Source: Crocinitomicaceae bacterium (GTDB taxonomy: Bacteria; Bacteroidota; Bacteroidia; Flavobacteriales_D; Crocinitomicaceae). From it: a stretch of 64,000 bases of DNA. Positions 136 through 51,856 of the stretch are shown in pieces. Numbering within the stretch: the first letter of the stretch is position 1; every line of letters begins with the position of its first letter. The stretch spans positions 124,001 through 188,000 of the forward strand of contig JAQWYK010000034.1 of NCBI GenBank assembly GCA_029254025.1, in the 5' to 3' direction. The notes beneath the pieces are model-generated. The model saw only the letters and a list, made by a program, of their open reading frames with translations, was not told where the DNA came from and searched no databases. The position numbers and the translations under genes were made by a program.

Positions 136-174
136 CACTCTGAATTCCAACCATGCTAAATTCCGCACAGTATT

Positions 175-270
175 ATGTACCTTACTATTAGAGATTATTG
201 TATACAAAGGATAAAAGAATTTGATCATATACCCCAAGCTCGCAAGGATTTATTAAGACATATTGCATAA
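175..270 (+). pseudogene. Detached N-terminal segment of the phosphatase-like gene, ended by in-frame TAA
   Basis: An ATG at 175 opens 31 codons that stop at TAA 268-270. In the same frame, without any frameshift, the reading continues through residues YIVQNKNKKYPIQLVYM straight into the phosphatase P-loop. The segment (with RKDLLRHIA just before the stop) looks like the N-terminal helix that precedes the P-loop in Bacteroidota homologues of this family. A single substitution in a GAA, CAA or AAA codon would give the TAA. It is therefore read as the cut-off front of the next gene; a sequencing error or readthrough is also possible. Confidence 0.55.
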
Positions 271-318
271 TATATAGTCCAAAATAAAAACAAAAAATAT
301 CCAATTCAGCTTGTATAT

Positions 319-786
319 ATGTGCACTCACAACTCACGTCGGAGTCATTTTGGGCAAATATGGGCTGCGGTGGCTGCTGATTATTACGGTATTGAAAATG
401 TTATAACCTATTCTGGAGGCACAGAAGCTACAGCCTTACATGAAAATGCTATTTATACCTTATTATCAGTTGGTTTTGATCTTATTGCAGAAGATGATAC
501 AGAGAATTCCAAATACACTTTTCTATTTGGAAAAAATAAATCGACCGTATGTTTTTCTAAAACATATGACTCCCCAGAAAACCCTAAAGAAAACTTCGCG
601 GCGATTATGATGTGTTCTGATGCAGAGGATAACTGTCCGTTTATTCCTGGTGTCGATTTGAGAATAGCCACTACTTACGACGACCCTAAGAATTTTGACA
701 GAACAGATTTACAAACAGAAAAGTATGCGCAACGATGTTCTCAAATTGCTCGAGAATGTCTATTTATGTTTAGCCTTGTAGACTAA
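319..786 (+). CDS. Protein-tyrosine-phosphatase / arsenate reductase-like protein, N-terminus cut off
   Basis: The protein begins almost on the catalytic loop CTHNSRRS, a CX5R-S motif of the low-molecular-weight tyrosine phosphatase and arsenate reductase superfamily: Cys2 would be the nucleophile and Arg8 the phosphate/arsenate binder. The rest (155 residues) has the Rossmann-like pattern of the Bacteroidota branch of this family, including FDLIAEDD and a conserved DDP segment where the general-acid Asp is expected. Translation from ATG 319 would leave out the first beta strand, whose codons (PIQLVY) are present just upstream, so this start is unlikely to give a folded enzyme. The natural start appears to be 175, blocked by TAA 268-270. 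Substrate (phosphotyrosine or arsenate) is not decided by the sequence. Confidence 0.7.
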   Translation: MCTHNSRRSHFGQIWAAVAADYYGIENVITYSGGTEATALHENAIYTLLSVGFDLIAEDDTENSKYTFLFGKNKSTVCFSKTYDSPENPKENFAAIMMCSDAEDNCPFIPGVDLRIATTYDDPKNFDRTDLQTEKYAQRCSQIARECLFMFSLVD

Positions 787-860: not shown

Positions 861-2093
861 CTACTTTCTAAAGTCATACTTTAATACATGAACGCGTTGA
901 GCCGAGTACACAGTTGTTCTTCCAGATGTGTAAAACGCTACTACACACACCAATAAATACCATAAACCTCCTGTAGGACCAAACATTTCCACACCCATAA
1001 TAGCGCAAGCCAAGGGTGTATTTGTAGCACCCGCAAAGACAGCTATAAAACCAAGACCAGCAACAAACGATAAAGGCAATCCAAAGTATATGGCCAAAGT
1101 ACTTCCTAATGTTGCGCCGATAAAAAATAAAGGGGTCGCTTCGCCACCTTTAAACCCTACCGCTAAAGTGAACAGAGTGAATAAAAACTTCACAGCGAAC
1201 ACTCCTCCATGAGAAGCCTCGGTAAAAGCATCTTGTATTATTGGGATCCCCAACCCGGAATATGCCTCTAAATTTAGGGTGACAAAAACGACTGCTAGTA
1301 ATAAGCCTCCTAGCGATAAACGAACAATTGAATTGGGTAATAGTTGTTGAACCCCCTCTGTGAGATATTTTTTACCCCAACTAAAAAGCCCTGCTACTCC
1401 TCCGAAAATCCCTCCCAAGAATAGAACAGAACCGATATGCTGTAAGGTGAAAATTGGGACTTCCGAAATGGTATACCCAGTATGCGAAACACCCCATACT
1501 TGACAAGATAAATCTGACAGAAAACTGACTAGTACAATCGGCAATAGGCCTATTAAATTGAAAGCTCGGGCCCTATCTAATTCTACAGCAAAAACAGCTC
1601 CTGCTAATGGCGTCCCGAAGACACCTGCAAATCCCGCAGCCGCTCCCATTCTTAAAATAATTTTTCGGTTTAACTGTATCGTTTTAAACAATCCCCCTAT
1701 CCAATCCGCTATTGCGCCTCCCATTTGAACAGCCGTCCCCTCTCTTCCAGCGGAACCACCAAACAAATGCGTTAAAAGAGTACCAACAACAACCAAGGGC
1801 GCTAACTTCCAATGAATCCTTCTATGAGGCTCCACCATTTCATCGATCAATAAATTGGTCTCTTTTTCAACTCCGTTTGCAAAGAAGTGATAAACAATTC
1901 CAATGATTAATCCACCTAATGGCAAGAAAAATATCAGTACTCCATAATTCGTGCGTGCTTCAGTCACTACGTCAAGTAACCATAGAAATAATGCAGAGGA
2001 AGAACCCACTGCACTGCCGACAAAAAGGATAATTAGTGTCCAAACAACTAGTTTAGGCAATAAAGCCTGTGTCATCAACGTATCATTCTTCAT
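861..2093 (-). CDS. CLC-family channel/antiporter, probably CLC-F fluoride/proton antiporter
   Basis: A 410-residue multi-pass inner-membrane protein of the CLC family. It carries the GREGTAVQ form of the CLC signature with the gating glutamate at Glu118, and a KGGEATPLF segment corresponding to the second conserved pore motif. In the position of the chloride-coordinating GSGIP loop it reads ETNLLIDEM, with Asn80 in place of the serine; such Asn/Met replacement and the NLLIDE context are typical of the fluoride-exporting CLC-F subgroup. A fluoride-riboswitch-like element lies directly upstream (2098-2145), ending 5 bases before the ATG. Together these make fluoride efflux in exchange for protons the best prediction; a chloride transporter is the alternative. 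It has no cytoplasmic CBS domains. Confidence 0.85.
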   Translation of the reverse strand: MKNDTLMTQALLPKLVVWTLIILFVGSAVGSSSALFLWLLDVVTEARTNYGVLIFFLPLGGLIIGIVYHFFANGVEKETNLLIDEMVEPHRRIHWKLAPLVVVGTLLTHLFGGSAGREGTAVQMGGAIADWIGGLFKTIQLNRKIILRMGAAAGFAGVFGTPLAGAVFAVELDRARAFNLIGLLPIVLVSFLSDLSCQVWGVSHTGYTISEVPIFTLQHIGSVLFLGGIFGGVAGLFSWGKKYLTEGVQQLLPNSIVRLSLGGLLLAVVFVTLNLEAYSGLGIPIIQDAFTEASHGGVFAVKFLFTLFTLAVGFKGGEATPLFFIGATLGSTLAIYFGLPLSFVAGLGFIAVFAGATNTPLACAIMGVEMFGPTGGLWYLLVCVVAFYTSGRTTVYSAQRVHVLKYDFRK

Positions 2094-2097
2094 TGTT

Positions 2098-2145
2098 CGC
2101 AGACGTCATTAGCCACAAGGCGCTTCGAGGCGGACATCATCGCCT
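2098..2145 (-). promoter_or_regulatory. Fluoride (crcB-type) riboswitch
   Basis: Read on the minus strand, 2144 to 2129 gives GGCGATGATGTCCGCC, with a GGCG/CGCC stem closing a loop whose GAUGUC can form a pseudoknot with GACGUC at 2107-2102. The next part has GCC-UUGU-GGC followed by UAAUGACGUCUGC, matching the conserved 3' half of the fluoride aptamer (general form CUGAUGAnnnCUAC). Order, spacing and size (about 48 nt) agree with the known class. It begins a few bases after a TAnnTTTG promoter and ends 5 bases before the CLC start codon, so control is likely at translation initiation. No search was run. Confidence 0.85.
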
Positions 2146-2154
2146 ATTTTCCAG

Positions 2155-2181
2155 CAAATTTAGAAAAAAATGAGTAACAAA
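2155..2181 (-). promoter_or_regulatory. Bacteroidota-type promoter of the riboswitch-CLC transcript
   Basis: On the minus strand TAAATTTG (2162-2155) matches the -7 element exactly, with TTTG (2181-2178) 15 bases upstream, slightly closer than usual. Transcription would start near 2148-2150, right at the aptamer. The TTTG lies inside the T-run of the preceding rpmA terminator. Confidence 0.6.
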
Positions 2182-51677: not shown

Positions 51678-51749
51678 GGCCCATTCGTCTAGTGGTTAGG
51701 ACGCCAGGTTTTCATCCTGGAAACAGGAGTTCGATTCTCCTATGGGCTA
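51678..51749 (+). tRNA. tRNA-Glu (anticodon TTC), copy 1
   Basis: A 72-base cloverleaf: acceptor GGCCCAT/ATGGGCT, anticodon arm CCAGG-TTTTCAT-CCTGG, T loop TTCGATT, discriminator A. Anticodon TTC reads GAA/GAG. CCA is not encoded. Confidence 0.95.
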
Positions 51750-51784: not shown

Positions 51785-51856
51785 GGCCCATTCGTCTAGT
51801 GGTTAGGACGCCAGGTTTTCATCCTGGAAACAGGAGTTCGATTCTCCTATGGGCTA
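51785..51856 (+). tRNA. tRNA-Glu (anticodon TTC), copy 2
   Basis: Identical to copy 1 in all 72 bases; the copies are 35 bases apart and likely share one promoter. rpsT follows 29 bases downstream and may be read from the same promoter. Confidence 0.95.

Follow-up and report, generated by a model that had tools for sequence, protein, structure and literature searches.

Fluoride riboswitches, RNAs of the crcB motif (Rfam RF01734), were reportedly described by Baker et al. in 2012. The gene associated with the riboswitch of Pseudomonas syringae is of the CLC type (eriC). The riboswitches of P. syringae and Burkholderia pseudomallei are translational controls (PMC13273304). Those of Bacillus cereus and T. 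petrophila act on transcription, the 3′ pseudoknot strand of the aptamer being exchanged with the expression platform (PMC13273304, PMC11077080). Bacteroidota mRNAs are devoid of Shine–Dalgarno sequences, and RNA structure around the start codon adjusts their initiation (PMC6847099). On the protein side, the closest described system is CLC-Eca from Enterococcus casseliflavus, with solved structures 6d0j, 6d0k and 6d0n.

The locus compared here with these systems belongs to a Crocinitomicaceae bacterium and lies in a window of 64,000 nucleotides, which is the whole stretch of DNA analysed. It shares with RF01734 riboswitches the aptamer stems, the pseudoknot and a place before a fluoride exporter gene, and differs from them by an AAGC joint instead of the usual AACC. 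As in P. syringae and B. pseudomallei, there is no terminator and translational control is expected; as in P. syringae, the gene is of the CLC type. The difference lies in the target of the competing strand (the anti-strand): as Bacteroidota mRNAs have no Shine–Dalgarno sequence (PMC6847099), this strand would meet the start region or the first codons. The part exchanged in the model for the window, the 3′ pseudoknot strand, is the same as in B. cereus and T. petrophila, but there the exchange builds a terminator, whereas the window has no T-run and the pairing falls at the gene start.

The locus is likely to be a fluoride-activated (ON) translational riboswitch that drives a CLC-F fluoride/proton antiporter. 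Transcription would proceed from a TAnnTTTG promoter located just past the terminator of a ribosomal-protein operon and would have the 5′ border of the aptamer as its starting point. In the fluoride-free RNA, GACGUCUG, the 3′ strand of the pseudoknot, would re-pair downstream with the first codons (CAGGC) and fold the start region around Met7 (residues are counted from Met1, the first ATG of the open frame), lowering translation. With fluoride and Mg2+, the pseudoknot would be stabilised, GACGUCUG withdrawn, the start site freed and the exporter made. The pair formed by riboswitch and CLC-F gene is of a known kind; what is added is a corrected start codon and phylum-wide evidence for a platform at the start site. 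The locus itself adds one more exporter under riboswitch control. Of more use is the comparison with related leaders, which offers a sequence-supported and easily tested model for a translational riboswitch where mRNAs have no Shine–Dalgarno sequence and, potentially, a small natural element for inducing genes with fluoride in Bacteroidota.

The aptamer, its promoter and the upstream terminator

A cmscan search against Rfam matches RF01734 at window positions 2153–2093 (−) with 48.2 bits (E 2.7e-10) over the full model (1–64), 14 bits above the gathering score of 34 bits. This confirms the fluoride aptamer that an earlier, sequence-only reading had placed before the CLC gene, and the significant match covers the interval 2098–2145 in which that reading expected it. 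The named pieces each sit where they had been put, all on the minus strand: stem P1 (GGCG 2141–2144 with CGCC 2129–2132), the 5′ pseudoknot strand GAUGUC in the P1 loop (2133–2138, complementary to 2102–2107), the hairpin GCC-UUGU-GGC (2112–2121), the 3′ end UAAUGACGUCU (from 2111) and the 3′ pseudoknot strand GACGUC (2102–2107), which the swap test over 67 leaders described below designates as the switching strand as well. Both stems and the pseudoknot are intact. Of the collected loci, 10 have a pseudoknot of the GAUGUC/GACGUC type, and different matched pairs are seen elsewhere in the set (GGUGU/GACGCC, GGAGU/GACUCC); since matched types vary between loci, as expected, the pseudoknot of the window is considered real.

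The joint preceding P3 (2122–2125, −) is AAGC in the window. It is AAUU in the sister species G012, the only other genome of the window's genus in the comparison, and CC is present in 86 of 98 loci. The AAGC/AAUU joint thus appears as a departure in the aptamer core specific to the genus. Judged by its sequence, the RNA is a fluoride riboswitch, and an ordinary member of the class apart from this joint.

On the minus strand, the order is rplU-rpmA, terminator, TAAATTTG element, aptamer and CLC gene. The intrinsic terminator of the rplU-rpmA (L21-L27) operon lies at 2179–2206 (−12.2 kcal/mol, z −4.8), and in the sister species an A-T pair of its stem is replaced by G-C, with changes on both sides. 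The element TAAATTTG (2155–2162, −) fits a primary-sigma promoter: it conforms to TAnnTTTG, the known −7 element of Bacteroidota promoters (PMC7366714), and its counterpart in the sister species is TAAATTTA. Among 66 Bacteroidota CLC-F leaders, 53 have TAnnTTTG abutting the 5′ side of the aptamer, versus 4 of 195 control stretches, and therefore transcription probably begins with the opening bases of the aptamer. The T-run of the rplU-rpmA terminator merges with the presumed −33 region, where a weak candidate TTTG (2178–2181, −) ends the run at a spacer of 15 nt from the −7 element. The weight formerly given to this TTTG nested in a terminator finds no support: the sister species has TCTG, so the element is not conserved, and F. 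johnsoniae yielded no −33 motif (PMC7366714). That promoter and terminator overlap is best regarded as close packing. A scan for sigma-70 promoters of the E. coli type gave no more than chance.

The predicted antiporter and its probable start codon

The CLC gene occupies 861–2075 (−) and encodes 404 amino acids from Met7, or 410 from Met1, with a PF00654 match. Among solved structures, it best matches the CLC-F entries 6d0j, 6d0n and 6d0k, with E values of about 1e-57 (3e-57 for 6d0j), versus 1.5e-10 for the best non-F CLC. In a tree built by a quick method and showing some long branches, which sets the window protein and 31 other CLC-F against 10 chloride-type CLCs of the same bacterial family, the protein groups with the CLC-F, including Eca 6d0j (SH-aLRT 99), and not with the chloride antiporters. 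The gating Glu118 is accompanied by Thr120, where 10 of 10 chloride CLCs have Pro, and Glu318, whose role in CLC-F is described in PMC12035849, is Glu in 32 of 32 CLC-F and in 0 of 10 others. The protein is, by these sequence criteria, of the CLC-F type, with fluoride/proton antiport as the predicted activity; the same assignment had been made in the sequence-only reading, and the alignment with CLC-F and chloride CLCs upholds the retention of Glu118 noted there.

Less straightforward is the choice of Asn80 as the selectivity change. Asn80 is conserved and matches the CLC-F pattern, but in the alignment it is residue 79 that falls on the chloride-coordinating Ser107 of CLC-ec1 and on Met79 of CLC-Eca (PMC12035849). 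At this residue (codon at about 1857–1859, −), the window has Thr and the sister species Ser, and 27 of 32 CLC-F have Asn. In comparison with CLC-Eca, the window protein thus shares the clade, Glu118, Glu318, Asn80 and the GREG motif, and differs by Thr79 for Met79 (Asn in most Bacteroidota CLC-F) and by Thr120 for Val.

The open frame contains two candidate start codons on the minus strand, the ATG of Met1 (2091–2093), taken as the start in the earlier reading, and that of Met7 (2073–2075), which lies 18 bases downstream. Initiation at Met1 would allow the aptamer itself to control the ribosome site with no separate switching strand. In favour of this arrangement, the ATG at 2093 is in frame and has an A at −3, the sister species carries an in-frame TTG near that position, and of the three bases that differ in the aligned codons in between, two are at third positions. 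The comparative evidence points the other way. According to the CLC-F alignment, seven near relatives, which begin at the position of Met7, start 10–12 residues before an invariant Trp, a distance of 12 for Met7 and 18 for Met1. In other CLC-F leaders, the start lies at least 32 nt from the beginning of the 3′ pseudoknot strand, as counted by a script that favoured starts no nearer than 20 nt (an in-frame ATG below that limit was present in only four other leaders); the corresponding distances are 35 nt for Met7 and 17 nt for Met1. In the sister species, the ATG of Met7 is retained, and at Met1 the TTG is accompanied by a one-codon deletion. Scored by the base frequencies of relatives, the start context of Met7 (−1.58) is mediocre, and that of Met1 is lower (−4.75).

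There is also a problem of direction. With a start at 2093, the strand stabilised by fluoride would sit inside the ribosome site and block initiation, so that the exporter would be shut OFF by fluoride; control by the aptamer alone on the start site is therefore not supported, and initiation at Met1 is unlikely. Given the distances to Trp, the leader distances, the ATG of the sister species and this direction problem, the real start codon is probably Met7 (2075–2073). An ATG does occur at 2093–2091, at the end of the aptamer as the sequence-only reading had it (5 bases by its count), but it is probably not the start codon. More generally, start codons beside such leaders are easily annotated too early.

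Predicted pairing between the pseudoknot strand and the start region

The expression platform was approached with 118 fluoride riboswitch leaders, 112 of them different, mainly from Bacteroidota. In most of them, a stretch beside the start codon complements the 3′ pseudoknot strand. In a swap test with 5000 permutations on 67 leaders <75% alike, the strand pairs with its own start region at −10.6 kcal/mol versus −6.8 with swapped ones (z −13.4, 0/5000; z −10.0 for the 41 CLC-F leaders alone), figures that kinship remaining after the thinning at 75% may inflate somewhat. By shuffling, 49 of 91 leaders are individually significant (p<0.05). The pairs are of several types: GCCUAC with GUAGGU-uAUG (GUAGGY), CCUGAU with AUCAGG-auuauuAUG, ACUUC with AUG-AAGU (GAAGU), CUUCAAC with AUGUUGAAG (GUUGAAG), and GUCUACUU with AAGUAGAC, the latter directly before AUG. 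Such complementary changes between types do not appear to be explained by kinship alone. The anti-strand ends at most 12 nt from the start in 52 of 60 leaders, and among 62 Bacteroidota CLC-F leaders only 2 have a T-run of five behind it. Complementarity near the start combined with the rarity of T-runs indicates that the usual CLC-F platform would be a strand exchange onto the start region that dispenses with a terminator; phylum-wide, this suggests that the 3′ pseudoknot strand re-pairs over the start site when fluoride is absent. It is tempting to propose, with somewhat less assurance than for the switch of the window itself, that Bacteroidota have a layout of their own, in which the −7 element abuts the aptamer, the leader consists of the aptamer plus about 20–50 nt, and strand exchange brings the 3′ pseudoknot strand onto the start region or first codons, an arrangement conserved by complementary changes that would need no Shine–Dalgarno sequence. 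If true, this layout may be a model for riboswitch control in bacteria without Shine–Dalgarno sequences.

Two groups of leaders depart from this pattern. In six of them (L025, L029, L077, L149, L157 and L191, Pedobacter among them), the gene starts with AUGCCUG, which is complementary to the CAGGC of the P3 3′ strand and not to the pseudoknot strand; this is possibly a second way to hide the start codon. In four others (L039, L099, L100 and L042), which are non-CLC and mostly crcB leaders, a complementary strand is followed by a T-run, which resembles the arrangement of terminating fluoride riboswitches. It may be that crcB genes are controlled by termination and CLC-F genes by start occlusion.

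In the window, the predicted partner of GUCUG (2100–2104, −), a part of the switching strand, is CAGGC (2065–2069, −) in codons 3–4 counted from Met7. RNAfold gives this fluoride-free pairing a probability of about 0.55, and it is also the best helix in a helix search. The helix encloses a small hairpin at the AUG. The anti-strand is kept in the sister species, where the helix is extended (CGUCUG with CAGGCG) and the AUG paired, the inner helices over the AUG differing slightly between the two species. Taken alone, the pairing is not significant in the window (rank 20 of 67 in the swap test, p 0.28 by shuffling) and barely so in the sister species (p 0.047 by shuffling). Blocking the switching strand raises the unpaired probability of the AUG from 0.51 to 0.78, a modest predicted opening. 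The pairing of GUCUG with CAGGC is thus a plausible model for the window, and the mechanism at its start region is best inferred by analogy with the phylum. A second helix picked out by eye, UAAUGACGU with ACGUUGAUG (2103–2111 with 2073–2081, −), was rejected: it forms 8 of 9 pairs in the window, is poorly kept in the sister species and is disfavoured by RNAfold, which prefers GUCUG with CAGGC.

The proposal of the earlier reading that the aptamer controls translation directly survives in part: control of translation rather than of termination is favoured by the 2 of 62 T-runs and the lack of a terminator, but the aptamer would not act alone on the start. Rho-dependent termination or RNA decay is known alongside translational riboswitches of other bacteria. 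Such processes, coupled to blocked translation, could give most of the regulation here; the sequence is neutral on this point, and a dominant role for them is considered improbable. A further alternative is that the aptamer has decayed or senses fluoride poorly, so that the CLC-F gene is in effect constitutive. The AAGC that replaces AACC, a score of 48 bits when relatives reach up to 62 and the occurrence in the family of CLC-F genes devoid of riboswitch are in line with such decay. Against this stand the margin of 14 bits over the cut-off, the intact stems and pseudoknot, and a 3′ strand of the aptamer identical in the sister species though the flanks have diverged, which make decay very unlikely. 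Finally, termination as in B. cereus, with a terminator formed between aptamer and gene without fluoride, is highly improbable, since, despite the complementary strands followed by T-runs in some crcB leaders of the phylum (L039, L099), such runs are rare in CLC-F leaders, the window shows neither a T-run nor a hairpin in the stretch from aptamer to gene, and a scan for terminator-like sites there detected none. The preferred reading thus remains an ON switch acting on translation at Met7.

Distribution and neighbouring genes

The genome (2.7 Mb in 50 contigs, 99.9% complete by estimate) has a single CLC gene, with the aptamer directly before its CLC-F open frame. A covariance-model search over the whole 2.7 Mb detected no second RF01734 match, and a search of the genome for a CrcB/Fluc gene found none; the CLC-F of the window is thus the only detected member of either main family of fluoride exporters. 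The gene order is the same in the sister species: EamA transporter, L21, L27, terminator, promoter, aptamer, CLC-F and phosphatase.

Of 200 genomes in the family, 12 have a fluoride riboswitch above the cut-off, as do 46 of 395 sampled Bacteroidota genomes (about 12%); among 80 named CLC-F loci, 29 are preceded by one. In Bacteroidota, such a copy is thus neither rare nor unusual. Within the family, no fluoride riboswitch is recognisable in the leaders of 6 of about 18 CLC-F genes (L048, L055, L057, L061, L062 and L063), and the same holds for most Flavobacterium CLC-F loci.

Next to the CLC-F gene, at 160–786 (+), is a phosphatase gene of the low-molecular-weight-phosphatase/ArsC-like type, recognised by eye from its CTHNSRRS motif; no Pfam match was obtained for it at 0.001. 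An in-frame TAA at about 268–270 cuts off its N-terminal part, leaving an open frame of 171 amino acids, compared with 204–238 in relatives and 213 in the sister species. Two readings are conceivable: the TAA is a nonsense mutation, or translation of this gene begins at an internal start. Farther along the window, two identical tRNA genes lie 35 bases apart at 51678–51749 and 51785–51856 (+).
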